Assembly (NCBI GenBank): GCA_036389795.1
Contig: DASVWD010000189.1
Span: 1 to 54,940, forward strand
Direction of reading: 5' to 3'
DNA length: 54,940 nt
From: Longimicrobium sp.
Lineage (GTDB): Bacteria; Gemmatimonadota; Gemmatimonadetes; Longimicrobiales; Longimicrobiaceae
The number at the start of each line of letters is the position of its first letter. The first letter of the stretch is position 1. A program made the translations under genes and the position numbers. Below the pieces are notes generated by a model. It searched no databases and was not told the DNA's origin. It was given only the letters and a program-made list of their open reading frames with translations. Below are positions 24,869 to 43,538 of the stretch, one piece after another.

Positions 24869-26032
24869 ATGGCCGTTCCGTTTTCACGCACGACGCGGGC
24901 GCTGCGCGCGGATGGGGCGCGGCGCTCCATCGCGCTTCAAGTAGCCGGCGTGCTGCTGCTGGCGGCGTGGGCCGCGTGGCTGGCGGCGGCGCGGCTCACG
25001 CTCTACGAGACCTCGGCGGGGGCGCGGGTGGAGGCCGGGCGCGCGGTGCACCCGGTGGACGCGGCGGCCGGCGGACGCGTGGTGGCCGCGCCGGGGCTCA
25101 GGCTGGGCGCGGCGGTGCGCGCGGGCGAGGTGCTGGTGGTGCTGGACGCCGGCGCGGAGCGGATCGAGCTGGAGCGCGAGCGCGCCCGCCTGGCCTCGCT
25201 CGCGGCGCAGCGCTCGGCGCTCGTGGCGCGGCTGGGCGACGAGGGCGGCGCGCTCGCCCGCTCCCGCGAGGCGCTCGCCGCCGCGGCGCGCGAGGGGGCG
25301 GCGCGGGTGCGCGACGCGGAGGTCGGCGAGCGGCTGGCCAGGAGCGAGGAGCAGCGCGCGGCCGCCCTGCACGCCGCGGGCACCCTCGCCGACGCGGAGC
25401 TGCAGCGCGCGCGGGCGGCGGGCGACCGGGCCGCCTCCGCCGTCGACGCGGCGCGCTCCACGGCGGCGCTGGAGGAGGCGCGCGGGCGGCAGGCGGTGGC
25501 CGAGGCCGAGGCGCGGCTGAACGCGCTCCGCGGCGAGATCGCCGCGGCCGAGGCCGAGGCCGCGCGGCTGCGGGCGGCGGAGCGGCGGTGGACGCTGGAG
25601 GTGGAGCGGAAGACGATCCGCGCGCCCGTGGACGGGCGGCTCGCGCGCGTCGAGCCCCTGCGCCCCGGCGGCGTGCTGGCGGCGGGCGCGCGCGTGGCGG
25701 AGGTGGTGCCGGACGGGCGGCTGCGCATCGTGGCGGAGCTGCCGGTGCGCGCGACGGGGCGGGTGCGCGCGGGGCAGACAGCGCGGCTCAGGCTGGCCGG
25801 CTTCGAGCCCACGCGCTACGGGAGCGTCCTCGCCCGCGTGGCGCGGGTGGGGACGGAGCCGCGCGGCGGCCGGGTGCGCGTGGAGTGCGAGGTGGTCGAC
25901 GCGCCTCCGGCCATCCCCCTCCAGCACGGGCTGGCGGGGACGCTGGAGATCGCGGTGGCGCGGGTGACGCCGGCGGCGCTCTTCGCGGGCAGGGTCGCCC
26001 GGGCGCTGCGCGGGGAGGAGGAGGCGCGGTGA
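24869..26032 (+). CDS. HlyD-family periplasmic adaptor of a peptide exporter
   Basis: 387 residues: a short basic N-terminus, one membrane helix at about 20-42 (IALQVAGVLLLAAWAAWLAAARL), a lipoyl-like half-motif (RVVAAPGLRLGAAVRAGEVLVVLD), a long Ala/Glu/Arg coiled coil at 95-240, the second half (KTIRAPVDGRLARVEPLRPGGVLAAGARVAEV) and a beta-barrel. This is the adaptor of type I-like secretion, linking the inner-membrane ABC transporter to the outer membrane. Its TGA overlaps the GTG of the C39 transporter by 4 bases. The layout resembles the secretion protein of NHLM-type bacteriocin exporters. Confidence 0.88.
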   Translation: MAVPFSRTTRALRADGARRSIALQVAGVLLLAAWAAWLAAARLTLYETSAGARVEAGRAVHPVDAAAGGRVVAAPGLRLGAAVRAGEVLVVLDAGAERIELERERARLASLAAQRSALVARLGDEGGALARSREALAAAAREGAARVRDAEVGERLARSEEQRAAALHAAGTLADAELQRARAAGDRAASAVDAARSTAALEEARGRQAVAEAEARLNALRGEIAAAEAEAARLRAAERRWTLEVERKTIRAPVDGRLARVEPLRPGGVLAAGARVAEVVPDGRLRIVAELPVRATGRVRAGQTARLRLAGFEPTRYGSVLARVARVGTEPRGGRVRVECEVVDAPPAIPLQHGLAGTLEIAVARVTPAALFAGRVARALRGEEEAR

Positions 26033-28812
26033 GGCTGCCGTCGGTTGACCGCCCGCGCCGGCTGCTGGCGCCGGAGGTGATCCAGAGCTCGGCGCTGGAC
26101 TGCGGGCCGGCGGCGCTGGCCGCGCTGGCGGCGGGCTTCGGCATCCCCGCCGGCTACGGCCGCCTGCGCGAGGCCTGCCAGACGGACGTCGACGGTACGT
26201 CGATCGACTCGGTCGAAGTCGTGGCCCGCCAGCTCGGGATCGACGCGGAGCAGGTGATGCTCCCGGCCGACCACCTCCTCCTCCCCGAGGCGAACGCGCT
26301 CCCCGCCATCGTCGTCGTCCGCAACCCCGGGGGGACCACGCACTTCGTCGTCGCCTGGCGGGCGCACGGGCGGGTGGTGCAGGTGATGGACCCCGCGGTG
26401 GGCCGGCGCTTCCACTCCCGCGCGAAGTTCGTCTCCGACCTCTACATCCACGCGCTCCCCGTCCCCGCCGCCGCCTGGAAGGAGTGGGCGCGCGGCGACG
26501 AGTGCACCGCCGCGCTCCGGGCCCGCCTGGCGCGCCTGGGGTTGCGGCGCGAGGCGGAGTCGCTCCTCGCCGAGGCCGCCGGCGGTCCGTGCTGGCGCGG
26601 GATGGCGACGCTGGACGCGGCGGTGCGGCTCACGGCGTCGCTCGCGGCGGGGGGCGCGCTCGCACGGGGGGCGCAGGCGGGGCGGGCGCTGCGCACGCTG
26701 GTGGACGACGCGCTGGCGCTACCGGAGGGGGAGGAGACGGAGGTCGTCCCCGCCGCCTACTGGATGGTGCGCCCCCACCCGCCGGGTCAGGACGGCGAGG
26801 AGCGGCTGCTGCTGCGCGGCGCCGTGCTCGTCCGCGCCAGGAGGCTCGTCGACCGGGAGAAGGCGGCCGCCTCGGGCGCCGAGCTGCCGGAGCCGTCGCG
26901 CGAGGTGCGGGCGGCGCTCGAGGAGCCGCGGACCAGCCCGGGACGGCGGCTCCTCGGCTTCCTGCGCGAGGACGGCGCGCTCGCCCCGGCGGTGCTCGCC
27001 GCGGCGCTGGCGGCGTCCGCGCTCGGCGTCGTGCTGGAGGCGCTCGTCTTCCGCGGGCTGCTGGACGCCGGGCGCGAGCTGGGGACGCCGCTGGCGCGCG
27101 GGGCGGTGTTCGCGGCGGCGGTCTTCCTCTCCCTCGTCCTCCTGCTGCTGGACTGGAGCGGCGCCCAGGGGCTCCGGCGCGCGGGGCGGCACCTGGAGGC
27201 GCGGCTGCGGGTGGCGTTCCTGGCGAAGCTGCCGCGCCTGGGCGACCGCTACTTCCACAGCCGCCTCACCAGCGACATGGCCGAGCGCGGGCACGCCGTC
27301 CACGCCCTCCGCTCGCTCCCCGACCTGGCCGGGCGCATCGTCCGCACGGCGTGCGAGCTGGCGCTCACCACGGGGGCGATCGTCTGGCTGGACCCGCGCA
27401 GCGCCGTCCCCGCTCTCATTGGTGTCCTCATCGCGCTCGCCGTCCCCTTCGCGCTGCACGGCTTCGTGGCCGAGCGCGACCTGCGCGTGCGCAGCCACCT
27501 GGGGGCGCTCAGCCGCTTCTACCTGGACGCGCTGCTGGGGCTCACGCCGGTGCGGGCGCACGGCGCCGAGCGCGCCGTCCGCCGCGAGCACGAGATGCTG
27601 GTGACGGAGTGGGCGCGCGCCAGCCTGGGCCTCTTCCGCGCGCTGGCCGCCGCGGGGGCCGTCACCGCGGCGGCGGGCTTCGGCGCGGCGGCGTGGATCG
27701 TCCTGGCGCACGCGGCGCGCGAGGGGGCCTCGGCGGAGCTGCTCCTGCTGGCGTACTGGGCGCTCTCCATCCCCGTCCTGGGCCAGGCGCTGGGCCTGCT
27801 GGCGCGCCAGTACCCGATGTACCGCAACGTCGCGCACCGGCTGTTCGAGCCGATCGATGCTCCTGAGGAGAAGTGCGTGAGTGCGGAAGTGCGTGAGTGC
27901 GTTAGTGCGAAAGTGCGAGAGTGCGAAAGTGCGAAAGTGGGGGATGGCGATGCGCCTCGGCCCACCGTGCCGTTGCGCACTCACGCACTCACGCACTCAC
28001 GCACTGGGGTTGAAGTTGAAATGCGCGGGGTGCGGGTCGAGGCGGCGGGGACCATCATCCTGCACGACGTCGATCTCACGATCCCGGCGGGGAGCCACGT
28101 GGCCATTGTCGGGGCGAGCGGGGCGGGGAAGTCGAGCCTGGTGGGGCTGCTGCTCGGGTGGCACCGGCCGGCGCGCGGCGTCGTCATCGTCGACGGCGAG
28201 GAGCTCGACGCGGAGACGCTGGCGCGGCTCAGGGCGGAGACGGCGTGGGTGGACCCGGCGGTGCGGCTCTGGAACCGGCCGCTGGCGGAGAACCTCCGCT
28301 ACGGCGCGCCGGCGGGGTCGCTGCACCGCGTGGGCGCCGCCGTGGACGCGGCGGACCTGCGCGGCGTGGTCCAGCGCCTCCCGGCCGGGCTGCAGACGCC
28401 GCTCGGCGAGGGCGGCGGGCTCGTCTCCGGCGGCGAGGGGCAGCGGGTGCGCTTCGCCCGCGCGCTGCTGCGCCGGGACGCCCGCCTGGCGATCCTGGAC
28501 GAGCCGTTCCGCGGGCTGGACCGCGAGCGGCGGCGCGCGCTGCTGGCCCGGGCGCGCCGGGCCTGGCGCGGCGCCACCCTCCTCTGCGTCACCCACGACG
28601 TGGGCGAGACGGCGCGCTTCGACCGCGTGCTGGTGATGGAGGACGGGCGGGTGGTGGAGGACGGCGCCCCCGCCGACCTGGCCGCGCTCCCCTGCTCGCG
28701 CTACCGCGGGCTGCTCGACGCCGACGCCGAGGTGCGCGAACGGCTCTGGTCCGCCGCGCGCTGGCGCCGCCTGGTGCTGGCGGACGGCACGCTGCGCGAG
28801 GAGGACCGGTGA
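26029..28812 (+). CDS. C39 peptidase-containing ABC exporter
   Basis: 927 residues from GTG 26029. The N-terminal C39 protease has a complete catalytic set: C25 in SSALDCGPAALA, H105 in GGTTHFVVAW and D121 in QVMDPAVG. Such domains cut leader peptides after Gly-Gly, Gly-Ala or similar. A roughly 190-residue spacer follows, then the six-helix membrane domain (about 330-610), then an ATPase with Walker A GASGAGKSS, signature LVSGGEGQRVRFARAL, Walker B LAILDEPFRGLD and H-loop VTHD. Residues 615-660, between the membrane and ATPase domains, are encoded by an inserted palindromic repeat. The natural substrates are probably the short peptides encoded from 31153 onwards. Confidence 0.92.
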   Translation: MRLPSVDRPRRLLAPEVIQSSALDCGPAALAALAAGFGIPAGYGRLREACQTDVDGTSIDSVEVVARQLGIDAEQVMLPADHLLLPEANALPAIVVVRNPGGTTHFVVAWRAHGRVVQVMDPAVGRRFHSRAKFVSDLYIHALPVPAAAWKEWARGDECTAALRARLARLGLRREAESLLAEAAGGPCWRGMATLDAAVRLTASLAAGGALARGAQAGRALRTLVDDALALPEGEETEVVPAAYWMVRPHPPGQDGEERLLLRGAVLVRARRLVDREKAAASGAELPEPSREVRAALEEPRTSPGRRLLGFLREDGALAPAVLAAALAASALGVVLEALVFRGLLDAGRELGTPLARGAVFAAAVFLSLVLLLLDWSGAQGLRRAGRHLEARLRVAFLAKLPRLGDRYFHSRLTSDMAERGHAVHALRSLPDLAGRIVRTACELALTTGAIVWLDPRSAVPALIGVLIALAVPFALHGFVAERDLRVRSHLGALSRFYLDALLGLTPVRAHGAERAVRREHEMLVTEWARASLGLFRALAAAGAVTAAAGFGAAAWIVLAHAAREGASAELLLLAYWALSIPVLGQALGLLARQYPMYRNVAHRLFEPIDAPEEKCVSAEVRECVSAKVRECESAKVGDGDAPRPTVPLRTHALTHSRTGVEVEMRGVRVEAAGTIILHDVDLTIPAGSHVAIVGASGAGKSSLVGLLLGWHRPARGVVIVDGEELDAETLARLRAETAWVDPAVRLWNRPLAENLRYGAPAGSLHRVGAAVDAADLRGVVQRLPAGLQTPLGEGGGLVSGGEGQRVRFARALLRRDARLAILDEPFRGLDRERRRALLARARRAWRGATLLCVTHDVGETARFDRVLVMEDGRVVEDGAPADLAALPCSRYRGLLDADAEVRERLWSAARWRRLVLADGTLREEDR
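27871..28006. repeat. Family B palindrome inside the C39 transporter gene
   Basis: GAAGTGCGTGAGTGC-type words on the left and CACGCACTCACGCACTCACG on the right flank a short centre, the same architecture as the intergenic copies. The reading frame runs straight through it, adding about 45 residues (KCVSAEVRECVSAKVREC on the left arm, RTHALTHSRT on the right). Confidence 0.85.
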
Positions 28813-30944
28813 GCGCCGCCGCGCGTCTGGCCTGGGAGCCCGCCGCGCTCGCCGAGGCGCTGCCGCTCCTCCTGCGCGGCGCCGGGCTCGCCGCGGACGC
28901 GCCCGCCACGCTCCCCCCGCCGCCCGCAGCCGGCGCCTCCGCGCACGAGGTGGAGCGCTGGCTCTCCGCCGCCGTCGAGCCGCTGGGGCTGGAGGCGGAG
29001 CCGGTGGACAGCGCCTACGCCGAGGTGGAGGGGATGCTCGCCGGCTGCGCGCCCGCCCTCCTGCACGTCCCGTCGGGGGAGGGGGAGCGCTACCTCGCCG
29101 TCGCCCGCGGCGGGCAGCGGGAGGTGCGCGTGCTCGCCCCCACGCGGCGCGTCGAAGCGCTCCCCGTCGCGGAGCTGCGGGCGGCGGTGTGCGGGCCGAT
29201 CGAGCGGCCGCTGGCGGAGGGAGTCGACCGGGTGCTGGCGCGCGCGGGCGTCCCCGCGCGGCGGCGGGAGCGGGCGCGGGCGGCGCTGCTGGCGGAGCGG
29301 CTGGGCGCGCGGCGGGTGGGCGGCTGCTGGCTGCTGCGCCCGCGGCCCGGCGCTCCGCTGGCGCGGCAGGCGGCGGAGGGCGGGCTCGGAGGGCTGCTGG
29401 CGCGGCTGGTGGCGGCGCACGCGGCGGAGTACGCGCTCTGGCTCGCCGCCTGGGCGCTGATCGGCGCGGGGGCGCTGTCGGGGCGCATCGACCGCGGCTG
29501 GCTGGCCGGGTGGGTGCTGGTGCTGGCGGCGGCGGTGCCGCTGCGGGCGCTCTCCACCTGGTGGCAGGGGCTCCTGTCGGCGCGCGCGGGCGTGCTGTTG
29601 AAGCGGCGCCTGCTGGACGGCGCGCTCCGGCTGCGGCCGGACGAGATCCGCCACCAGGGCGCGGGCCAGCTCCTGGGGCGCGTGGTGGAGTCGGAGGCGG
29701 TGGAGGCGCTGGCGCTCTCCGGCGGCTTCGCGGCGGTGCTGGGCGCCATCGAGCTGGCGGCGGCGCTCTTCGTCCTGGCGGCGGGCGCGGGCGGGTGGCC
29801 GCACGCGCTGCTGCTCCTGGCCTGGCTGGGCGTGGTGGGCGCGCTGGCGTGGCGCTACCACCGCGTGCGCAGGCGGTGGACGGGGGCGCGGCTGGAGATG
29901 ACGCACGACCTGGTGGAGCGGATGGTGGGCTACCGCACCCGGCTGGCGCAGGAGGAGCCGGAGCGCTGGCACGATGCCGAGGAGGAGCAGCTCGACCGCT
30001 ACCTGGACCGCTCGGCGCGGATGGACGGCGCCGCCGCGCGGCTCTCCTCGCTCGCCGGGCGCGGGTGGCTGGCGGTGGGGCTGCTGGGGCTGGCGCCGGC
30101 GTTCGCGCGCGGGGGCGGCGGCGCGGCGGAGATCGCGGTGGCGCTCGGCGGCGTGCTGCTGGCCTGGCAGTCGCTCGCCCGCCTGGCCCCGGCGCTGGCG
30201 CAGCTCCCCGATGCGGCCATCGCCTGGGAGCGCGTGGGCGAGCTGTTCCGCGCCGCCGCGCGCACGGAGCCGGTGGGCGCCTGGGAGGCGCGGGCCATGC
30301 CCGGCGCATCGTCGTCTCACGAAGACGAGGCGGCGCCGGTGCTGGAGGCGGCGGGGCTCGGCTTCCGGCACGGCGGGCGGGGGGCGCCGGTGTTCGAGGA
30401 GGTGGCGGTGCGCGTCGTGCGCGGGGACCGCGTGCTGCTGGAGGGCCCGTCGGGCGCCGGGAAGTCGACGCTGGCCTCGCTGCTCGCCGGGCTGCGCGAG
30501 CCGGAAGCGGGGTCGCTGCTGCTGGGCGGGCTCGACCGCTGGACGGTGGGCGCGGCCGAGTGGCGCCGCCGGGTGGCCGCCGCGCCGCAGTTCCACGAGA
30601 ACCACGTCCTCACCGAGACCTTCGCCTTCAACCTGCTGATGGGCCGCGGCTGGCCGCCCTCGCCCGACGACCTGGAGGCGGCGGAGGAGCTCTGCCGCGC
30701 GCTGGGCCTGGGCGAGCTGCTGGACCGCATGCCCGCGGGGCTCATGCAGATGGTGGGCGACGGCGGATGGCAGCTCTCGCACGGGGAGAAGAGCCGCCTC
30801 TTCCTGGCCCGCGCGCTCCTGCAGGGCGGCGACGTGGTGGTGCTCGACGAGAGCTTCGCCGCGCTCGACCCCGGGAACCTCGCCCGCTGCCTGCGCGTGG
30901 CCGTCGAGCGCGCGCCGTCGCTGCTGGTCATCGCCCACCCGTAA
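28809..30944 (+). CDS. Second exporter ABC transporter with a degenerate C39-like domain
   Basis: 711 residues from GTG 28809, overlapping the previous stop by 4 bases. The first 170 residues look like a C39 domain that has lost catalysis: APALLHVPSGEGERYLAVARG stands where the His strand should be and VRVLAPTRRVE replaces the Asp motif. A membrane domain (about 195-470) and an ATPase follow: Walker A GPSGAGKST, an off-consensus signature LSHGEKSRLFLARAL, and Walker B VVVLDESFAALD. The protein ends right after the H-loop (LLVIAHP), shorter than usual. It probably pairs with the C39 transporter, as the two ABC proteins of NHLM-type loci do. Confidence 0.85.
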   Translation: MSAAARLAWEPAALAEALPLLLRGAGLAADAPATLPPPPAAGASAHEVERWLSAAVEPLGLEAEPVDSAYAEVEGMLAGCAPALLHVPSGEGERYLAVARGGQREVRVLAPTRRVEALPVAELRAAVCGPIERPLAEGVDRVLARAGVPARRRERARAALLAERLGARRVGGCWLLRPRPGAPLARQAAEGGLGGLLARLVAAHAAEYALWLAAWALIGAGALSGRIDRGWLAGWVLVLAAAVPLRALSTWWQGLLSARAGVLLKRRLLDGALRLRPDEIRHQGAGQLLGRVVESEAVEALALSGGFAAVLGAIELAAALFVLAAGAGGWPHALLLLAWLGVVGALAWRYHRVRRRWTGARLEMTHDLVERMVGYRTRLAQEEPERWHDAEEEQLDRYLDRSARMDGAAARLSSLAGRGWLAVGLLGLAPAFARGGGGAAEIAVALGGVLLAWQSLARLAPALAQLPDAAIAWERVGELFRAAARTEPVGAWEARAMPGASSSHEDEAAPVLEAAGLGFRHGGRGAPVFEEVAVRVVRGDRVLLEGPSGAGKSTLASLLAGLREPEAGSLLLGGLDRWTVGAAEWRRRVAAAPQFHENHVLTETFAFNLLMGRGWPPSPDDLEAAEELCRALGLGELLDRMPAGLMQMVGDGGWQLSHGEKSRLFLARALLQGGDVVVLDESFAALDPGNLARCLRVAVERAPSLLVIAHP

Positions 30945-31152: not shown

Positions 31153-31212
31153 ATGCACGCACGGACCAGCCTCCGCGCCGGCTCCCGCGGCACCATGGAC
31201 CCGAACGGCTGA
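31153..31212 (+). CDS. Array peptide 1
   Basis: Encodes MHARTSLRAGSRGTMDPNG (19 residues). GGAAGGGAGG lies upstream of the ATG. Residues 11-13 are S-R-G where most copies have x-G-x, and M replaces the hydrophobic I15. Confidence 0.7.
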   Translation: MHARTSLRAGSRGTMDPNG

Positions 31213-31224
31213 AAGAGGATCACG

Positions 31225-31290
31225 ATGAAGACGTCCACGACGCTCAGGGCCGGCTTCGGGCCCCGCATCGACGGCAACGGCGCACCCTGA
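31225..31290 (+). CDS. Array peptide 2
   Basis: Encodes MKTSTTLRAGFGPRIDGNG followed by the tail AP. Preceded by AAGAGGA. G17 replaces the usual proline. Confidence 0.72.
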   Translation: MKTSTTLRAGFGPRIDGNGAP

Positions 31291-31303
31291 AGAGGAGACC
31301 ATC

Positions 31304-31378
31304 ATGCACACGCGGACGAGCGTCCTCGCCGGCAGTCGCGGCGGGATGACCCGAACGGCTGAAAGGCGGCCGCGATGA
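31304..31378 (+). pseudogene. Array peptide 3, frameshifted copy
   Basis: Starts MHTRTSVLAGSRGGM, then one base is missing from the ATGGACCCGAACGGCTGA ending, so translation continues as TRTAERRPR and stops in the ATGA of the next copy. A preceding AGAGGAGA is intact. Confidence 0.65.
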
Positions 31379-31440
31379 AGACGAACACGACGGTCAGGGC
31401 CGGGGCCGGGATGGACATCGACGGCAACGGCGCGCCCTGA
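31375..31440 (+). CDS. Array peptide 4
   Basis: Encodes MKTNTTVRAGAGMDIDGNG plus tail AP. Its ATG overlaps the shifted stop of copy 3. Very close to copy 2 in sequence, suggesting a recent duplication. Confidence 0.7.
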   Translation: MKTNTTVRAGAGMDIDGNGAP

Positions 31441-31465
31441 CGACTTCCGCACCGGGAGGTGGACG

Positions 31466-31531
31466 ATGGACACACGGACGGGAATCCGGGCGGGCGAGGG
31501 CTGGCTGATCGACCCCAACGGCAAACCCTGA
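31466..31531 (+). CDS. Array peptide 5
   Basis: Encodes MDTRTGIRAGEGWLIDPNG plus tail KP. GGGAGG sits 7 bases before the ATG. Confidence 0.72.
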   Translation: MDTRTGIRAGEGWLIDPNGKP

Positions 31532-31545
31532 CGGGGAGACGACCC

Positions 31546-31611
31546 ATGCGCGCAGCTACCGGCACGCGCGCGGGCGAAGGGCCCGGGATCGATCCCCACG
31601 GCGACCCCTGA
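31546..31611 (+). CDS. Array peptide 6
   Basis: Encodes MRAATGTRAGEGPGIDPHG plus tail DP. GGGGAG lies upstream. T7 replaces the usual branched hydrophobic residue. Confidence 0.7.
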   Translation: MRAATGTRAGEGPGIDPHGDP

Positions 31612-31642
31612 CCCGCCTGGCGCGGGAGAAGGAGAACGAGCG

Positions 31643-31708
31643 ATGGACACCACGACGAGCATCCGCGCCGGCGAAGGGGTCCTGATCGACCCCAACGGCA
31701 AACCCTGA
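31643..31708 (+). CDS. Array peptide 7
   Basis: Encodes MDTTTSIRAGEGVLIDPNG plus tail KP, nearly identical to copy 5. GAGAAGGAGAACGAG precedes the ATG. Confidence 0.73.
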   Translation: MDTTTSIRAGEGVLIDPNGKP

Positions 31709-31722
31709 ACAGCGAGGCGACC

Positions 31723-31809
31723 ATGCACGCCGCCACAGGCCTTCGCGCGGGCGAGGGATCGCAGATGGACCCAACGGCTGATCCACCGCGCTTCGGGAGG
31801 ACGAGATGA
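31723..31809 (+). pseudogene. Array peptide 8, frameshifted copy
   Basis: Starts MHAATGLRAGEGSQMDP, but CCCAACGGC has lost one C, so the frame reads on as TADPPRFGRTR to a TGA inside the ATGA of copy 9. The normal end would have been DPNG. Confidence 0.65.
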
Positions 31810-31865
31810 ACACCGCCACCGGCATCCACGCCGGCAAAGGGGTCCTGATCGACCCTAACGGCTGA
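31806..31865 (+). CDS. Array peptide 9
   Basis: Encodes MNTATGIHAGKGVLIDPNG. H8 replaces arginine. The Shine-Dalgarno GGGAGGACGAG lies within the shifted end of copy 8. Confidence 0.7.
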   Translation: MNTATGIHAGKGVLIDPNG

Positions 31866-31887
31866 GTCCCCAGGACAGAGGCGAACC

Positions 31888-31953
31888 ATGAGCACGCACA
31901 CACACGTCCGCGCCGGCGAGGGGTCGATGATCAACCCCAACGGCGCCCCCTAG
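31888..31953 (+). CDS. Array peptide 10
   Basis: Encodes MSTHTHVRAGEGSMINPNG plus tail AP, ending in TAG. The only copy with N in place of D16. Confidence 0.7.
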   Translation: MSTHTHVRAGEGSMINPNGAP

Positions 31954-32016
31954 CCCGCCGCGGCTTCGGAGATCCCTTCGACGCCCGTAGCCGCTCGGGC
32001 AAGAGAGGAGAGCGAG

Positions 32017-32076
32017 ATGAGCACCACGACGAGCATCCGCGCGGGACTCGGTCCCTGCATCGACCCCGACGGTTGA
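32017..32076 (+). CDS. Array peptide 11
   Basis: Encodes MSTTTSIRAGLGPCIDPDG. AGAGAGGAGAGCGAG precedes the ATG. It carries a cysteine at position 14, next to the conserved I15-D16. Confidence 0.72.
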   Translation: MSTTTSIRAGLGPCIDPDG

Positions 32077-32108
32077 AGCGCCTTCCACTTCGACCAGGAG
32101 AAACAGCC

Positions 32109-32174
32109 ATGCGGACGAGCACCCACGTGAGGGCCGGCACCGGCGTTCGCATCGATCCCAACGGCGCACCCTGA
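32109..32174 (+). CDS. Array peptide 12
   Basis: Encodes MRTSTHVRAGTGVRIDPNG plus tail AP. CAGGAGAAA lies upstream. Confidence 0.72.
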   Translation: MRTSTHVRAGTGVRIDPNGAP

Positions 32175-32195
32175 CGCACACCAGGCGAGGCAGCG

Positions 32196-32261
32196 ATGAA
32201 CACCCCCACCGGACTGCACGCGGGGCAGGGGTTCGGCGTCGATCCGAACGGCGCACCCTGA
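32196..32261 (+). CDS. Array peptide 13
   Basis: Encodes MNTPTGLHAGQGFGVDPNG plus tail AP. The upstream region CAGGCGAGGCAGCG is shared with copy 14. Confidence 0.7.
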   Translation: MNTPTGLHAGQGFGVDPNGAP

Positions 32262-32284
32262 CGCACACAGCTGACGAGGCAGCG

Positions 32285-32344
32285 ATGAAAACGACCACCA
32301 GCCTTCAGGCGGGGAAGGGTCTCGGCGCCGATCCGAACGGCTGA
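32285..32344 (+). CDS. Array peptide 14
   Basis: Encodes MKTTTSLQAGKGLGADPNG. Q8 and A15 are unusual substitutions in otherwise conserved positions. Confidence 0.7.
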   Translation: MKTTTSLQAGKGLGADPNG

Positions 32345-32374
32345 GCGCCTCCCCTCACGACGAGGGAAAACGAG

Positions 32375-32434
32375 ATGAACACCACCACCGCCATCCACGC
32401 GGGGCGAGGCTTCGGCATCGACCCGAACGGCTGA
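32375..32434 (+). CDS. Array peptide 15, last of array 1a
   Basis: Encodes MNTTTAIHAGRGFGIDPNG. GAGGGAAAACGAG precedes the ATG. A terminator begins 16 bases after its stop. Confidence 0.72.
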   Translation: MNTTTAIHAGRGFGIDPNG

Positions 32435-32449
32435 TCGACGACGCAGCCG

Positions 32450-32482
32450 ACCGCGGCGCCCACCCGGGCGCCGCGGTTTTTC
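32450..32482 (+). terminator. Intrinsic terminator closing array 1a
   Basis: ACCGCGGCGCCC and GGGCGCCGCGGT form a perfect 12-bp stem with a 4-base loop, followed by TTTTTCG. Confidence 0.9.
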
Positions 32483-32719
32483 GTACGTTCTTCACGCCGC
32501 TTTCCATCTCCCTCCAGGCGCGCCGAACGCAATTCAGTGAATGCCCGGGTCGGTCCACCCCGGCCCGCGCCACCTCGTCACACGCGACGCGGAACCTGGT
32601 GTCCACGCATGCAGATTGATGGGCGAAGCAGGCGGAAGCCCTCGCCTGCTCCGCCGGGCCGGGCGCCCCGCCGGCAGCGGACCGGACCGGCAACCCACTT
32701 CAACCACATGGAGCCATCC

Positions 32720-32779
32720 ATGAACGTGACTACCCAGGTACGCGCGGCCGCAAAGGCCATTTGGGACGAGAACGGCTGA
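32720..32779 (+). CDS. Array peptide 16, divergent solitary copy
   Basis: Encodes MNVTTQVRAAAKAIWDENG. It keeps the T-rich start, hydrophobic-R-A at 7-9, D16, N18 and G19, but has A10 instead of G10, K12 and E17. An in-frame ATG at 32708 adds MEPS. It stands alone between two terminators. Confidence 0.65.
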   Translation: MNVTTQVRAAAKAIWDENG

Positions 32780-32790
32780 TCCACGCCGTA

Positions 32791-32826
32791 GGCCGCGGTG
32801 CCCGACCGGGCGCCGTGGCCTTTTTT
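32791..32826 (+). terminator. Intrinsic terminator after peptide 16
   Basis: GGCCGCGGTGCCC pairs with GGGCGCCGTGGCC (two G-T pairs) around GACC, then TTTTTT at 32821-32826. Confidence 0.9.
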
Positions 32827-33005
32827 GCCCACGCACATCCTTCCCCGGCTACCTCTCCGGTCGTCCCCCCGCCGTTACCGCTTGTCTCCTCCCTGTTTGC
32901 GCCCGTACCGCGGTCCTGCCCGGCATGCCCGCCCCGCGTCTATCCATACTGTGCCGCCCGTCGTTCCGATGGGCGGCGGAATCACAGTCCGAACGGAGGT
33001 GGAGC

Positions 33006-33065
33006 GTGAGACTGCAGACCGCCACCAGGGCCGGCGACGGCACCGGCATCGACCCGCACGGCTGA
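33006..33065 (+). CDS. Array peptide 17 (GTG start)
   Basis: From GTG it encodes MRLQTATRAGDGTGIDPHG. ACGGAGGTGGAGC gives a strong ribosome binding site. Confidence 0.7.
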   Translation: MRLQTATRAGDGTGIDPHG

Positions 33066-33086
33066 GCCGATTCGAAGGAGGCTGAG

Positions 33087-33146
33087 ATGAAGATCCTGAG
33101 CACCATCAGCGCCGGCGACGGAGCCGGCCTCGACCCGCACGGCTGA
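33087..33146 (+). CDS. Array peptide 18
   Basis: Encodes MKILSTISAGDGAGLDPHG. GAAGGAGGCTGAG precedes the ATG. S8 replaces arginine. Confidence 0.7.
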   Translation: MKILSTISAGDGAGLDPHG

Positions 33147-33177
33147 GCCGGCGCGGACCACCGGAAGGGAGGGCACG

Positions 33178-33243
33178 ATGCAGATCCGCAGCGCGCTGAA
33201 GGCCGGCGAAGGCGCCGGTCTCGACCCGCACGGCAGCCACTAG
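33178..33243 (+). CDS. Array peptide 19
   Basis: Encodes MQIRSALKAGEGAGLDPHG plus tail SH, stop TAG. GGAAGGGAGGGCACG lies upstream. Confidence 0.7.
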   Translation: MQIRSALKAGEGAGLDPHGSH

Positions 33244-33299
33244 CGCGGCTTCGCGCCACCGTGGCTGACCGATCGAGCTCAGCTCGAACGGAGGAAATC

Positions 33300-33359
33300 A
33301 TGGACGTCGACAGCGGCATCCGGGCCGGTGAGGGAACCGGCATCGACCCGCACGGCTGA
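33300..33359 (+). CDS. Array peptide 20
   Basis: Encodes MDVDSGIRAGEGTGIDPHG. ACGGAGGAAATC precedes the ATG. Confidence 0.72.
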   Translation: MDVDSGIRAGEGTGIDPHG

Positions 33360-33487
33360 CCCGGCATATCAGGAGGACGCGATCATCCAGGCGGTGCTCT
33401 CCCGCACCCTCGACCCGCGTCCGGCTTCACCGGCGGCCCGTGCCCGGCCGCCGCGGGACCGGACCAGCCTCCGGAAAGGAGCGACCG

Positions 33488-33547
33488 ATGCGCGTCCAGA
33501 CCACAGTCGCGGCCGGCGTCGGCTGCGGCATCGACCCCAACGGCTGA
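33488..33547 (+). CDS. Array peptide 21
   Basis: Encodes MRVQTTVAAGVGCGIDPNG, with a cysteine at position 13 and A8 in place of arginine. GGAAAGGAGCGACCG lies upstream. Confidence 0.7.
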   Translation: MRVQTTVAAGVGCGIDPNG

Positions 33548-33610
33548 TCCCGACCCGCCGGCGGCGCACCTCCGCGCCGCCGGCACCCGCCACCCTCTCG
33601 TCAGGCGATG

Positions 33611-33670
33611 ATGAAGACCAGCACGCAGCTCCGGGCCGGCATGGGCCCACGCATCGACGACAACGGCTGA
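33611..33670 (+). CDS. Array peptide 22
   Basis: Encodes MKTSTQLRAGMGPRIDDNG; an ATG at 33608 would add one Met. No strong Shine-Dalgarno sequence. D17 replaces proline. Confidence 0.65.
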   Translation: MKTSTQLRAGMGPRIDDNG

Positions 33671-33734
33671 GCCGACCCCGCTGGCCGCGCACTCCACGCC
33701 GCCGGCCATCCATCCACCCAGCTCGTCGACCACG

Positions 33735-33794
33735 ATGAAGACCAGCACCCAGCTCCGCGCGGGCGCAGGCCCCCGCATGGACGACAACGGCTGA
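33735..33794 (+). CDS. Array peptide 23, last of array 1b
   Basis: Encodes MKTSTQLRAGAGPRMDDNG, differing from copy 22 at only two residues, with the surrounding 124-base unit also similar; a recent tandem duplication. Confidence 0.67.
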   Translation: MKTSTQLRAGAGPRMDDNG

Positions 33795-35700: not shown

Positions 35701-35871
35701 CGGTCCTCCGCGAGGTGAGGGGTCGAACCGGGCGGCCGGGCCGGGAAGCCGTGCTCGGCTTCCGCGGTGACGGCGTCGCCGCGGCTGCGCACGGGGCGGG
35801 CGTTGCGGCGGGTGGAGCCGCGGCGACCGAAGTCCGCCTGCGTGGCTCCCGGTGTGCCGGACGCGCCGCCC

Positions 35872-37659: not shown

Positions 37660-37725
37660 CGATCCTCCGGTGAGGTGAGTCGGTAGGGTTGGACTTCCCG
37701 CGGGACTCCGGACCCGGCCTGCGGC

Positions 37726-40359
37726 CTACTCGACGGTGATCGCCTCCACCGGGTTCACGCGGGCCGCGCGGCGGGCGGGGAGCCAGCACGCGAGCAGGGC
37801 CACGGAGAACAGGAGCGCCGTCACCGCCGCCACCGTGGGCGGGTCCGCGGCGCCCACCTCGAAGAGCACGCCCTTCAGCACCCGCGCGGCCGGCACCGCC
37901 ACGGCCACCCCGAGCGCCACCCCCAGCAGCGCGCGGCGCATCCCCCGCCCCACCACCAGCCCCACCACGGCGGCCGGCGTGGCGCCCAGCGCCATCCGCA
38001 CCCCGATCTCCTGCCGCTGCTGCGCCACCGTGTACGACATCACCCCGAAGATGCCGATGGCGGCCAGCAGCACGGCGGCCGCGGCGAAGGCGCCCAGGAG
38101 CCGCGTCCACCGGCGCGGCCCGGTCATCGAGTCGTAGAGGCGCTCCTCCATCGTCGCCATCCCCTCCAGCGGCAGGTCGGGGTCCAGCGAGCGGATGCGC
38201 GCCCGCACCCCCGCCGCCACCTCTCCGGGGTCGCGCGCCGTCCGCACCACCAGGTTCATCGCCGTACGGGTGTCCTGCAGGAAGGGGAGGTACATCGCCT
38301 CGCCGCCCCCCTGCAGCCCGTAGTACTTCACGTCGCCCACCACCCCGACCACCGTCCGGGGCGGGCACTCGCTGCAGCCGCCCGAGCGCAGCCGCCGTCC
38401 CACCGCCCGCTCGCCCGGGTAGTAGCGCCGGGCCCAGGCGCGGCTCACCACCACCACCGGCGGCGCGTCGCCGTCGTCGCGGGCGTCGAACAGGCGGCCC
38501 TCCAGGAGCGGCACGCCCAGCGCGCGGAACAGCTCCGGCGTGGCCGGAGAGTAGGGCGCCACGGGCTGGCTGCCGTCGTCGCGCGGGCGGTCCAGCAGCT
38601 CGAAGTTGTTCTCGTCGCCGGGGTCGTCGGGCGGGAGCGAGAGCGTCAGCCCGGCCTCCGCCACGCCGGGGACGCCGCGCACGCGCCGGAGCGCCTCGTC
38701 CCAGAAGCGCTGCACCGCCAGCGAGTCGGGGTAGCGCGTATCGGGGAGCGAGACGCGCACGGCGAGCAGCCGCTCCGGGTCGAAGCCGGGGTCCACGCGC
38801 TGCAGCCGCACGAAGCTGTGCAGCAGGAGCCCCGCGCCCATCAGCAGCGGCAGCGCCAGCGCGAACTCCGCCACCACCAGCCCGCCCTGGAACCAGCGCG
38901 TCTTCCGCTCCGCCGACGCGTGGCGCCCGGCGCCGCGGAAGCTCGACGCCAGGTCGCGCGAGAGGGTGAAGACCAGCGGATACGCCCCCACCAGCACCGC
39001 GCTCCCCAGCGCCGCCAGGGCGGCGAACGCCACCGTGCGCAGGTCCAGCCGCGCCTCCGCGATCCGCGGCAGCCCCGGCATCAGCCGCGCCAGCGCCCGC
39101 ACGCCGCCGTACGCCACCAGGAGGCCCGCCGCCCCGCCCAGCGCCGCCAGCACCAGGCTCTCCACCGCCAGCAGCCGCGCCAGCCGGCCCCGCCCCGCCC
39201 CCAGCGCCGAGCGCAGCGCGATCTCCCTGCGGCGCCCCGACGCCCGCACCAGCACCAGGTTGGCCACGTTGGCCACGCCGATCAGGAGCACCAGGACCAC
39301 GGCCCCCGAGAACACCGCGAGCGGGCGCCGCGCCCGGCCCACGATCGTCTCGCGCAGGGGCACCGGCGTCAGGCGGGAGGAGCGGTCCTGGTAGCTCGAG
39401 GCCCACAGGGGGAAGATGCGCTCGCTGATCCCCGCCAGGTCGCGCGCCGCCGCCTCGGGCGCCACCCCGTCCCTGAGCCTCGCGAACCCGCGCAGGAGGA
39501 AGGGTCCGCGGCGCGGCGGCGGCTCGACCGTCAGGACCGGCCACACGTCGGCGCGGAACCCCGCCAGGTCGCGGACCCCGGGGGGCAGGACGCCCACCAC
39601 GGTGTGGCTGGTCCCGTCCAGCACGATCTCGCGCCCGACGGCGCCGGCGCCGCGGCCGAAGCGGTGCTCCGCGAACGCGTGGGTGACCACGGCCACGGGC
39701 GGCGCGCCGGGGCGGTCCTCCCCCGCGCCGAAGTCCCGCCCCTCGGCGACGCTCACCCCCAGCGTCCGGAGGAGCCCCGCCGTCACCCGGCTCGCCTGCA
39801 CCCACTCCGGCTCGCCGCCGCCCGTGAGCGCCGCCTCGCCCGGGACGGTCAGCGCCGCCACCGACACGAAGCTGCGCTGCTGCTCCACGACGGCCAGGTA
39901 CTCCGCCATCGAGATCCCCCAGAGGCTCTGGGGCCCGCTCCCCTGGTAGATGCGCACCAGCCGGTCGGCGCGCGGGTAGGGGAGCGGCCGCAGCAGGGCG
40001 ATGTCCACCGCGGCGAACATGGCCGAGGTGGCGCCGATCCCCAGCGCCAGCGTGGCCACGGCCACCACCGCGAAGCCGGGGGAGCGGCGCAGCGCGCGCA
40101 CCGCGTAGCGCGCGTCGGCCCAGGCGTCTTCCAGCCACCCCACGCGGCGCCCGTCGCGCAGCGCCTCGCGGGTCCCCTCCACGCCCCCGAAGTCGAGGCG
40201 CGCCCGCCGCGCCGCCTCGTCGGGCGCCATCCCGGCGCTCAGGTTCTTCTGGGTCTCCATCTCCAGGTGGAAGCGCAGCTCCTCGTCCATCTCCGCGTCG
40301 CGCTCCTCCCGCCGGAGCAGCGAGCGGAGCCTCGCCGCCAGCCCGCGCAGGCGTCCCAT
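37726..40359 (-). CDS. ADOP-type (MacB/FtsX) ABC transporter permease
   Basis: 877 residues from MGRLRGLAARL. The N-terminal prefix (EMDEELRFHLEMETQKNLSAGMAPDEAARRARLDFGG) is the signature of acidobacterial duplicated orphan permeases. Two MacB periplasmic core plus FtsX membrane units follow: helix 1 at SPGFAVVAVATLALGIGATSAMF, further helices at VVLVLLIGVANVANLVLVRASGRRREIALRSALGA and, near the end, FGVMSYTVAQQRQEIGVRMALGA. No cognate ATPase is encoded nearby. Related proteins move lipids, peptides or antibiotics across the envelope. Its PadR regulator is just upstream. Confidence 0.92.
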   Translation of the reverse strand: MGRLRGLAARLRSLLRREERDAEMDEELRFHLEMETQKNLSAGMAPDEAARRARLDFGGVEGTREALRDGRRVGWLEDAWADARYAVRALRRSPGFAVVAVATLALGIGATSAMFAAVDIALLRPLPYPRADRLVRIYQGSGPQSLWGISMAEYLAVVEQQRSFVSVAALTVPGEAALTGGGEPEWVQASRVTAGLLRTLGVSVAEGRDFGAGEDRPGAPPVAVVTHAFAEHRFGRGAGAVGREIVLDGTSHTVVGVLPPGVRDLAGFRADVWPVLTVEPPPRRGPFLLRGFARLRDGVAPEAAARDLAGISERIFPLWASSYQDRSSRLTPVPLRETIVGRARRPLAVFSGAVVLVLLIGVANVANLVLVRASGRRREIALRSALGAGRGRLARLLAVESLVLAALGGAAGLLVAYGGVRALARLMPGLPRIAEARLDLRTVAFAALAALGSAVLVGAYPLVFTLSRDLASSFRGAGRHASAERKTRWFQGGLVVAEFALALPLLMGAGLLLHSFVRLQRVDPGFDPERLLAVRVSLPDTRYPDSLAVQRFWDEALRRVRGVPGVAEAGLTLSLPPDDPGDENNFELLDRPRDDGSQPVAPYSPATPELFRALGVPLLEGRLFDARDDGDAPPVVVVSRAWARRYYPGERAVGRRLRSGGCSECPPRTVVGVVGDVKYYGLQGGGEAMYLPFLQDTRTAMNLVVRTARDPGEVAAGVRARIRSLDPDLPLEGMATMEERLYDSMTGPRRWTRLLGAFAAAAVLLAAIGIFGVMSYTVAQQRQEIGVRMALGATPAAVVGLVVGRGMRRALLGVALGVAVAVPAARVLKGVLFEVGAADPPTVAAVTALLFSVALLACWLPARRAARVNPVEAITVE

Positions 40360-40421
40360 GGGTGGTCTCCGGGTCTTTCGTGTGTGTCCTGGCACTCAGC
40401 ACTTCGAACCGACGTTTCGAC

Positions 40422-40757
40422 CTACGCCGTCCCGAGGATCGACTCCACCGCGCCCACGTAGCGGCGCCAGCTCTCCGTCTCCTCGCCCAGCGCCCGGCGG
40501 CCGGCCGGGGTGAGCGCGTAGTAGCGGGCCCGGCGGTTGTTCTCGCTCGCGCGCCACTCGCTCTCGATCCACCCGCGGTGCTCCAGCCGCTGCAGCGCGG
40601 GGTAGAGCGAGCCCTGGTTCACGTCCAGCACCCCCTGCGAGAGCTGCTGGATGCGCTGGCTGATCCCCCACCCATGCATCGCCTGCAGCGCCAGCGTCTT
40701 CAGGATCAGCAGGTCCAGGGTGCCGCGGAGCACATCCGACGGCGGCGGCTGGGTCAT
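40422..40757 (-). CDS. PadR-family transcriptional regulator
   Basis: 111 residues. LRGTLDLLILKTLALQAMHGWGISQRIQQLSQGVLDVNQGSLYPALQRLEHRGWIESEW is the classic winged-helix domain, ending with a short dimerisation helix. PadR genes of this type precede ADOP permeases very often and repress their own operon in response to a ligand. It heads the minus-strand operon with the permease and the two hydrolases. Confidence 0.93.
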   Translation of the reverse strand: MTQPPPSDVLRGTLDLLILKTLALQAMHGWGISQRIQQLSQGVLDVNQGSLYPALQRLEHRGWIESEWRASENNRRARYYALTPAGRRALGEETESWRRYVGAVESILGTA

Positions 40758-41155: not shown

Positions 41156-41221
41156 ATGAAGATCCGCAGCGGCGTACCGGCCGGGGACGGGAACGGCTTC
41201 GATCCCCACGGCGGCCGGTGA
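41156..41221 (+). CDS. Array peptide 24
   Basis: Encodes MKIRSGVPAGDGNGFDPHG plus tail GR. GGAGGAGAGGACG precedes the ATG. P8 replaces arginine. Confidence 0.7.
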   Translation: MKIRSGVPAGDGNGFDPHGGR

Positions 41222-41251
41222 CCACACCAGCAGCGACGAGGGAGAGGGACG

Positions 41252-41362
41252 ATGAAGACGACCACGCATGTGCGCTCCGGGGAGGGACCCGCCCTGTGTC
41301 CCCTCGGCAACCGCGGCTCCGGCTCCAACTCCGGACCGGGCGGCGGAAGCGGAAGCGGGTGA
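41252..41362 (+). CDS. Array peptide 25, cysteine type with Gly/Ser tail
   Basis: Encodes MKTTTHVRSGEGPALCPLG and a 17-residue tail NRGSGSNSGPGGGSGSG (36 residues total). C16 replaces D16. S9 replaces A9. Confidence 0.72.
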   Translation: MKTTTHVRSGEGPALCPLGNRGSGSNSGPGGGSGSG

Positions 41363-41392
41363 GCCCCCGGACGCAGATCGAAAGGAGCGGCG

Positions 41393-41458
41393 ATGAAGAC
41401 CAGCAGCGGCGTTCTGGCCGGCGATGGGAACGGCCTCGATCCCCACGGCGGTCGGTGA
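41393..41458 (+). CDS. Array peptide 26
   Basis: Encodes MKTSSGVLAGDGNGLDPHG plus tail GR, a close relative of copy 24 although copy 25 lies between them. AAAGGAGCGGCG precedes the ATG. Confidence 0.72.
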   Translation: MKTSSGVLAGDGNGLDPHGGR

Positions 41459-41514
41459 CCACGCGAGGCGCCGCCCGGCATGGTGCCGCGGCGGCCGAAC
41501 CCGGGAGACGGACG

Positions 41515-41580
41515 ATGACGACGACGACGCACGTGCGCGCGGGGGGACGCGGCGGCTGGGACCCCAACGGCGATGCATGA
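41515..41580 (+). CDS. Array peptide 27
   Basis: Encodes MTTTTHVRAGGRGGWDPNG plus tail DA. W15 and the G-R-G-G run at 11-14 are unusual. Confidence 0.7.
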   Translation: MTTTTHVRAGGRGGWDPNGDA

Positions 41581-41602
41581 CACCTTTGCACCGGACGTGA
41601 AG

Positions 41603-41677
41603 ATGAAGACGGCCACCAGCATCCGCGCGGGCGAGGGCAACGGGCTCGATCCGCACGGCAACCCCATCGGCGGGTGA
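41603..41677 (+). CDS. Array peptide 28
   Basis: Encodes MKTATSIRAGEGNGLDPHG plus tail NPIGG. A GTG six bases upstream (41597) is in frame and could add MK. Confidence 0.7.
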   Translation: MKTATSIRAGEGNGLDPHGNPIGG

Positions 41678-41697
41678 ATCCACCCGGGAAGGCATAG

Positions 41698-41772
41698 ATG
41701 AAGACCACGACGAGCATCCGCGCCGGCGAGGGGAACGGGTTCGACCCGCACGGCACCCCGATCGGCGGGTGA
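41698..41772 (+). CDS. Array peptide 29
   Basis: Encodes MKTTTSIRAGEGNGFDPHG plus tail TPIGG; closest to the consensus of all copies. GGAAGGCATAG precedes the ATG. Confidence 0.75.
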   Translation: MKTTTSIRAGEGNGFDPHGTPIGG

Positions 41773-41791
41773 GAGCTTCGAGGAACCACGG

Positions 41792-41866
41792 ATGAAGACC
41801 GGCACCAGCATCCGCGCGGGCGAAGGCAGCGGCCTCGACCCGCACGGCAACCCCATCAGCGGGTGA
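41792..41866 (+). CDS. Array peptide 30
   Basis: Encodes MKTGTSIRAGEGSGLDPHG plus tail NPISG. CGAGGAACCACGG lies upstream. Confidence 0.73.
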   Translation: MKTGTSIRAGEGSGLDPHGNPISG

Positions 41867-41886
41867 ATCCACCCGAGGAGGCATAG

Positions 41887-41946
41887 ATGAAGACCGCGAC
41901 GAGCATCCGCGCGGGAGACGGCTCCCACATCGATCCCAACGGCTGA
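41887..41946 (+). CDS. Array peptide 31, last of array 2a
   Basis: Encodes MKTATSIRAGDGSHIDPNG with no tail. GAGGAGGCATAG precedes the ATG. A GC-rich region with several small hairpins follows. Confidence 0.72.
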   Translation: MKTATSIRAGDGSHIDPNG

Positions 41947-42146
41947 ACGCCGGGAGGGGCGGCGGGCGCGGGGCGCGGCCCGGCCCCGCGGCCGGTCCGC
42001 GCCCCGTCGTCCGGTCCCCGCCGGGCGCGCCTCGGCCCGGCGAACCGCGCCTCGCACCGCACGCGTCCTGCTGCTCGCCGACCTGCGCTATCCTGCATCC
42101 GTCCCGCGCACGCGGCGCGGGGCGCCACCCTCACGCGAGGTGCGCG

Positions 42147-42257
42147 ATGACCACCACGACCAGTGTTCGCGCCGGCGAGGGCTCCGGCATCTGCCCCAAC
42201 GGCAACCCCGGCCCCGGCAGCGGCTCGGGCTCCAGCTCGGGGCCCGGCGGCGGCTGA
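42147..42257 (+). CDS. Array peptide 32, cysteine type with Gly/Ser tail
   Basis: Encodes MTTTTSVRAGEGSGICPNG and the tail NPGPGSGSGSSSGPGGG (36 residues in all). Confidence 0.73.
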   Translation: MTTTTSVRAGEGSGICPNGNPGPGSGSGSSSGPGGG

Positions 42258-42293
42258 GCCGGCGCTTCACCGTTCCAGATCGAGAGGAAATCG

Positions 42294-42389
42294 ATGCGAG
42301 TCACCACCACCATCCGCGCCGGAGAAGGTCCCGCCATCTGCCCCAGCGGCAGCGGAGGGTCCGGCGGCAGCTCCGGGAAAGGCGGGTGA
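42294..42389 (+). CDS. Array peptide 33, cysteine type with Gly/Ser tail
   Basis: Encodes MRVTTTIRAGEGPAICPSG and the tail SGGSGGSSGKGG (31 residues). GAGAGGAAATCG precedes the ATG. Confidence 0.73.
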   Translation: MRVTTTIRAGEGPAICPSGSGGSGGSSGKGG

Positions 42390-42426
42390 CGACCCGCCGC
42401 ACACCACGACAGGCGAGGACGAAGAC

Positions 42427-42528
42427 ATGCGAATCACCACCACGGTCCGCGCGGGCGAAGGCTCCGGCCTCTGCCCCAACGGCAACTCCGGCTCGGGGAG
42501 CTCCAACTCCGGCTCGGGGAGCGGATAA
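42427..42528 (+). CDS. Array peptide 34, cysteine type with Gly/Ser tail
   Basis: Encodes MRITTTVRAGEGSGLCPNG and the tail NSGSGSSNSGSGSG (33 residues); the only copy ending in TAA. Confidence 0.73.
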   Translation: MRITTTVRAGEGSGLCPNGNSGSGSSNSGSGSG

Positions 42529-42555
42529 CCGTAATCAGAAGAGGAAGTTAGACGG

Positions 42556-42621
42556 ATGAAGACCGACAGCGGCGTGCGTGCCGGAGAGGGGTCGATCATG
42601 GACCCCGACGGGCGCGCCTGA
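42556..42621 (+). CDS. Array peptide 35
   Basis: Encodes MKTDSGVRAGEGSIMDPDG plus tail RA. AGAAGAGGAAGTTAGACGG precedes the ATG. Confidence 0.72.
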   Translation: MKTDSGVRAGEGSIMDPDGRA

Positions 42622-42642
42622 CCATCAGCCCAGGAGGGACGG

Positions 42643-42708
42643 ATGAACACCACCACGAGCGTGCGCGCCGGGGCCGGCTCCACCGTCGACCCGGACGGCC
42701 ACGCCTGA
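42643..42708 (+). CDS. Array peptide 36
   Basis: Encodes MNTTTSVRAGAGSTVDPDG plus tail HA. CAGGAGGGACGG precedes the ATG. Confidence 0.73.
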   Translation: MNTTTSVRAGAGSTVDPDGHA

Positions 42709-42727
42709 TCGAACGCGGAGTCACATC

Positions 42728-42790
42728 ATGCGGACCACTGCTCACGTCCGCGCCGGCGAGGGTGTCGTCATCGACCCGAACGGCGGGTGA
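42728..42790 (+). CDS. Array peptide 37, last of array 2b
   Basis: Encodes MRTTAHVRAGEGVVIDPNG plus a single extra G. Only a weak ribosome binding site (GGAGTCACATC). Confidence 0.7.
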   Translation: MRTTAHVRAGEGVVIDPNGG

Positions 42791-43406: not shown

Positions 43407-43538
43407 ATGAGACTCTCCACGCAAGTGCGCGCCGGCGGGCGCCAAGATCGACGGCAACGGCTGAGCGCCGTCCCCACCCTCACACCGGACGATGACAGTG
43501 AAGACGGCGCGCGCATCGACGACAACGGCGCACCCTGA
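43407..43538 (+). pseudogene. Array peptide 38, frameshifted and fused to a relic copy
   Basis: Starts MRLSTQVRAGGR, then the frame is shifted relative to an intact AAG-ATC-GAC-GGC-AAC-GGC-TGA (KIDGNG) ending. The shifted frame runs on through a second unit with its own ATG (43492), which has lost its middle, and ends in ARIDDNGAP. The result is a 43-residue chimeric frame made of two decayed copies. Confidence 0.6.

Follow-up and report, generated by a model that had tools for sequence, protein, structure and literature searches.

The mini-peptides that carry a cysteine at residue 16 (C16) together with a long Gly/Ser tail form a genuine and inherited subtype within a larger family of 19-residue peptides. 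The family is encoded in arrays in the window, i.e., the whole stretch of 54,940 nucleotides from Longimicrobium sp. analysed here. With a probability of about 0.6, the peptides are precursors with an ultra-short leader for a dedicated exporter of the C39-peptidase type, the C16/tail copies being one ancestral subfamily of its cargo and signalling being the most likely role.

Peptide arrays and the linkage of C16 to the tail

The window contains two arrays of the family, and four C16 copies are located in the second:

31153..33794, plus strand: first array, 22 listed copies of 19-28 aa, D16 or N16, no long Gly/Ser tails
41156..42790, plus strand: second array, 14 copies (ten D16, four C16)
41252-41362, plus strand: C16 copy with a 17-residue tail, ORF MKTTTHVRSGEGPALCPLG plus 17 residues; ortholog-like partner in G008 (L064, 18470)
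42147-42257, plus strand: C16 copy with a 17-residue tail, ORF MTTTTSVRAGEGSGICPNG plus 17 residues
42294-42389, plus strand: C16 copy with a 12-residue tail, ORF MRVTTTIRAGEGPAICPSG plus 12 residues
42427-42528, plus strand: C16 copy with a 14-residue tail, ORF MRITTTVRAGEGSGLCPNG plus 14 residues

The four C16 copies at 41252, 42147, 42294 and 42427 with their Gly/Ser tails of 12-17 residues, reported in a preliminary description of this DNA, are real, and the tail range of 0-5 residues given there for D16 copies was borne out by the remaining ten copies of the array at 41156-42790. The array at 31153-33794 lay outside that finding; its regular copies have D16 or N16 and tails of 0-2 residues. 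A survey of homologous arrays, as proposed in the same description, was performed on 127 regular members taken from the window, two more contigs of the same genome and a genome of the same genus (G008); all 127 differ in sequence. The correlation holds in G008 too. Across both genomes, the tails of the eight C16 copies are 9, 10, 12, 14, 14, 15, 17 and 17 residues long, compared to 0-6 residues for D16 (n = 114) and N16 (n = 5), and neither a C16 copy without a tail nor a D16 copy with a long Gly/Ser tail was present among the 127. The p-value of this association (Fisher, 7e-13) treats related copies as independent and was not taken as support for independent origins.

The C16 copies resemble each other more than random sets do even when column 16 and the tails are left out of the comparison (p < 0.001). 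The pair E11-G12 occurs in all eight, compared to 29 of the 119 remaining copies, and the copy at 41252 forms an ortholog-like pair with MNTTTRVRAGEGPSLCPLG of G008. Because of these shared residues and the pair across genomes, the C16 counts overstate independence, and the linkage probably has a single origin, retained in both lineages, rather than eight separate ones. Serine in the tails is encoded by TCN (25 codons) and AGC (13 codons) and glycine by four codons. Such mixed codon usage argues for selection on amino-acid composition and not for simple slippage, which suggests that the tails are constrained in composition but not in exact sequence.

A Shine-Dalgarno-like sequence was found ahead of 20 of the 22 starts in the first array, in which two listed copies seem to be frameshifted, and ahead of 13 of the 14 starts in the second. 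For the four main arrays together, 117 of 127 listed starts are preceded by such a sequence, compared to 25 of the 77 remaining ATGs of these stretches, and this enrichment makes the peptide ORFs credible genes. Searches of Pfam and NCBIfam returned no family for the peptides; the 19-residue family is apparently large and undescribed. Further arrays of the same genome were found at L031 288-2870 (G000:C242) and L032 13367-13753 (G000:C277), and a singleton at L065 99 (minus strand, G000:C275). Since some of the further arrays are located at contig ends, the copy count of the genome is a lower bound. Three copies (31304-31378, 31723-31809 and 43407-43538) seem to have been frameshifted or to have decayed, either ahead of the DPNG motif or inside it, and the longer end of copy 31723, which is not of the Gly/Ser type, results from the apparent frameshift. 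Readings of DPNG/CPNG as an RTX or calcium loop and as a lipobox were dropped due to missing repeat spacing and a missing hydrophobic signal. A single match of the C16 pattern in IMG/VR was rejected as a chance match, not being a family ORF.

The exporter and the probable ten-residue leader

A trio of exporter genes is located upstream of the first array:

24869..26032, plus strand: HlyD-type membrane fusion protein of 387 aa (Pfam HlyD_3, 53 bits, above cut-off)
26011..28812 (start approximate), plus strand: ABC transporter with N-terminal C39 peptidase (PF03412, 67 bits; ABC_tran)
28794..30944 (start approximate), plus strand: second ABC transporter of the trio (ABC_tran)

The first array starts about 210 bp past the trio, and the layout in G008 is the same. 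There, the HlyD homologue in the same place is 70% identical and the second ABC protein 68%; homologues of the latter in most trios of Acidobacteriota show 40-57% identity. The nearest solved structures to which the C39 domain could be aligned are PCAT1 and ComA, and the catalytic residues Q25, C31, H111 and D127 are intact in all 11 related exporters aligned. In family-level searches, the C39 clade of this exporter was sharply separated (E ≤ 1e-53, next best matches ≥ 7e-17). The clade is rare, being detected in 13 of 791 sampled genomes from two phyla (3 of 395 and 10 of 396), and is encoded by every genome with clear family peptides (the window genome G000, G008, G401, G798 and G769). Fourteen control genomes lacking the exporter gave one weak, partial peptide match only; the single matches in G056 and G417 are partial and weak and were treated as chance. 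Several exporter genomes contain no recognised family peptide, which counts against the peptides being exporter cargo. On balance, judged by gene neighbourhood and co-occurrence, the HlyD / C39-peptidase-ABC / ABC exporter appears to carry the peptides as its cargo.

Residue 9 is A in 125 of the 127 copies, and residue 10 is G (113), A (13) or E (1). At four other exporter loci, all of Acidobacteriota, peptides encoded upstream of HlyD have only their first ten residues (MKVxTxVKAG) in common with the family, their cores being unrelated:

Upstream of HlyD: leader-sharing peptide MKVETDVKAG-GAIWVGDGRGNHNETIVG
Upstream of HlyD: leader-sharing peptide MKVKTKVKAG-LAPTCGCGARGKGDHKPSYLGRHTR
Upstream of HlyD: two copies of a leader-sharing peptide, KINTNVKAG-GV[VL]ISD
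L167 12918, minus strand, upstream of HlyD: ORF of 93 aa with four VRTGVKAG-GPxLQHNK repeats

The ORF at L167, with its four leader-core repeats, looks as if one precursor yielded several peptides. Neither Pfam nor NCBIfam contains a family for these other KAG-leader peptides, a literature search for KAG-type leader strings returned nothing, and the fourfold-repeat protein gave no match in a plasmid tblastn search.

Since a common ten-residue head precedes unrelated bodies next to a C39 exporter, residues 1-10 look like a leader. Hence, we propose that M-x-[VT]-x-T-x-[VIL]-[RK]-A-G acts as an ultra-short leader and that the C39 domain would cut after A9-G10 while exporting, releasing a core of at least 9 residues. 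The core would comprise a variable segment (residues 11-15) and an x-P-x-G turn (residues 16-19); in the C16 subfamily, Cys would take the place of Asp at the turn-capping position and the core would be extended by the composition-conserved Gly/Ser tail. With a cut after AG, C16 would be core position 6 and the entire tail would be part of the released peptide. A hydrophobic signal stretch is not visible in the sequences. In the window's genus, about 60-70 distinct precursors per genome are found with one exporter, and the arrays would represent a natural variant library for the reading of an ultra-short leader by a C39 domain.

The system resembles known substrates of peptidase-containing exporters (PCAT1, ComA, CvaB/class II microcins) in the C39-ABC plus HlyD exporter with intact catalytic residues and, concerning the double-glycine leader, in a short N-terminal leader with a hydrophobic residue at -4 and small residues at -2/-1. 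In contrast to double-glycine substrates, the leader ends with AG or AA instead of GG, GA or GS, is 10 instead of 15-18 residues long and has a conserved T5; the precursors have just 19 residues and tens of copies per genome, and the trio includes a second ABC protein. The deviating motif and leader length count against the proposed reading. The gene order of HlyD, C39-ABC and second ABC is that of NHLM/NHLP bacteriocin export (TIGR03794/03796/03797). Among the NCBIfam models, TIGR03796 matches the C39-ABC protein best, yet the scores for the three models (39, 180 and 87 bits) are all far below the cut-offs (156, 853 and 709). Unlike NHLM/NHLP substrates, the peptides have no Nif11 or nitrile-hydratase-like leader, and no RiPP enzyme was seen nearby.

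The beta-lactamase-fold, ADOP permease and PadR genes at 33862-40757 were set aside: they belong to ordinary families and lie on the other strand, and the array in G008 directly follows the exporter without them. Between the two arrays, 33862-37659 (minus strand) encodes two adjacent beta-lactamase-fold serine hydrolases.

Acidobacteriota relatives and neighbouring TPR proteins

A pattern scan of named genomes gave one match, MRVSTYVRAGSGPVIDPEG, in the Acidobacteriota MAG OFTM223. The phylum of the window, Gemmatimonadota, appears to differ from that of OFTM223, as the two phylum samples have no listed genomes in common. In this genome and two relatives, the family occurs as dispersed single copies (18 in all, 19-20 aa), and all three genomes encode an exporter of the same clade. 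Neither C16 nor a tail was found in any of the 18 peptides, residue 16 being D, I or V. Sixteen of the 18 are located ≤ 130 bp from a gene for a TPR or TPR-homologous protein, compared to none of four control loci (chance-match loci of the same genome). Most of these neighbours have 335-492 aa and TPR matches; exceptions are an open frame of 705 aa at L125 and a split one at L130, and the neighbours at L124 and L171 were recognised mainly via homology to other TPR neighbours. Two also carry AraC-type DNA-binding domains. Orthologous peptide-TPR pairs stay together at 61-78% identity.

The model of one TPR protein is confident (pLDDT 91) and can be superposed on Rap with a Z of about 21 and on NprR with a Z of about 19. 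It also matches many other peptide-binding TPR proteins, APPBP2 and LGN among them, thus the fold is not diagnostic. Taken together, gene adjacency and the model suggest that the Acidobacteriota TPR proteins beside the peptides are peptide receptors. Intercellular signalling is the most likely role of the peptides, given that their Acidobacteriota counterparts pair with TPR proteins that have the size of receptors and, in some cases, fused AraC-type domains. With the Acidobacteriota TPR proteins as queries, no match was found at the window arrays, which counts against signalling there and makes it an extrapolation for these arrays.

RRNPP systems are characterised by a propeptide of 10-100 aa, an adjacent TPR receptor of 250-500 aa and export by Sec/PptAB (PMC10075063). 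The Acidobacteriota peptides agree with this in propeptide size, TPR neighbour and adjacency: as for Rap-Phr, NprR-NprX and Rgg-SHP of Firmicutes, a small peptide gene is found directly beside a TPR protein gene, and the modelled superhelix resembles Rap and NprR. They differ in belonging to Gram-negative phyla, in a C39 exporter as the probable route instead of Sec or PptAB, with no Sec-like signal visible, in the AraC-type domain of some TPR proteins and in the missing TPR gene at the window arrays. HetC, a PCAT of Nostoc and thus of a Gram-negative lineage, was proposed to export short regulatory peptides (PMC10986499); in contrast to the system described here, its substrate is unidentified and neither a peptide array nor a TPR pairing has been described.

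If the reading is true, Gram-negative phyla from which hardly any peptide communication has been described would possess a system of secretion and receptors on a par with RRNPP signalling, its precursors being so short that gene finders may overlook them. Tentatively, we extend this to a new secretion class of at least two Gram-negative phyla, which would be defined by a 10-residue xTx[VIL][RK]AG leader and its own exporter, with TPR signalling in Acidobacteriota and, in the window's genus, amplification to about 60-70 variant peptides per genome, of which the C16/tail subclass would have a chemically distinct output; we would not yet rely on this wider proposal.

Two small protein families recur beside the peptide-TPR pairs of Acidobacteriota, one at L128 7297-7818, L130 1704-2051, L132 691-1224 and L173 1805-2254, the other at L125 8555-9154, L126 1747-2340 and L127 5477-6118. 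The function of both is unassigned.

Possible roles of the cysteine and the tail

Segments of the form x-P-x-G favour a type I turn, which can be capped by D, N or Cys alike. C16 may therefore merely preserve the turn and be structurally conservative. The preliminary description had proposed two functional subtypes, of which the existence of two subtypes is supported by the linkage in an independent genome and the functional difference stays a hypothesis. It had read C16 as a site of disulfide-linked dimerisation or of a different thiol modification, the tail serving as a flexible spacer. Each of the eight C16 peptides contains exactly one Cys, hence only intermolecular disulfides or modification of the Cys are possible, and secreted peptides generally meet an oxidising environment; both would suit this reading. 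However, Cys is also present at residues 11-15 of 19 D16 peptides, none with a long tail, so a thiol needs no tail; furthermore, the array neighbours that were examined include no modification enzyme. The tail as a "linker" is doubtful, since it is C-terminal and nothing follows it. We regard the thiol explanation as unlikely. A founder effect, in which a slippage-born Gly/Ser tail arose in a C16 copy and both traits were inherited without functional coupling, seems similarly improbable: it agrees with C16 copies being one subfamily with common E11-G12 and lying close together in each genome, and with tails of low complexity and unequal length, but both traits are kept in all eight copies despite diverged leader and core positions, and the use of TCN and AGC for Ser and of four codons for Gly indicates that composition is conserved and not a DNA repeat.

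The C16/tail peptides might also be miniature antibacterials similar to class IIb microcins, whose Gly/Ser C-terminus bears a group for hijacking a receptor, for instance a siderophore. Class IIb microcins are exported by a PCAT with a membrane fusion protein and require the Gly/Ser-rich C-terminus for siderophore attachment (PMC10233263); the C16 subtype, and only this subtype, matches them in both exporter type and tail composition. Against this, the motif is AG and not GG/GA, the leader has 10 and not 15-18 residues, the cores are much shorter, neither a siderophore-linking nor an immunity gene was seen beside the arrays, and most family members are tailless, which makes such a function distinctly unlikely. 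The data support a distinct subtype and choose no role among dimerisation, thiol modification and a microcin-like tail. If the preferred reading of an exported cargo subfamily is true, the C16/tail subtype would offer a natural way of testing how core chemistry alters receptor choice or fate.

Apart from the C16 copies, a group of D16 copies in the window and L064 carries Cys at residues 13-14 without a long tail (for example YSACIDPNG, DGACIDPMG and GPCIDPDG) and is, judged by its sequences, possibly a third subtype.
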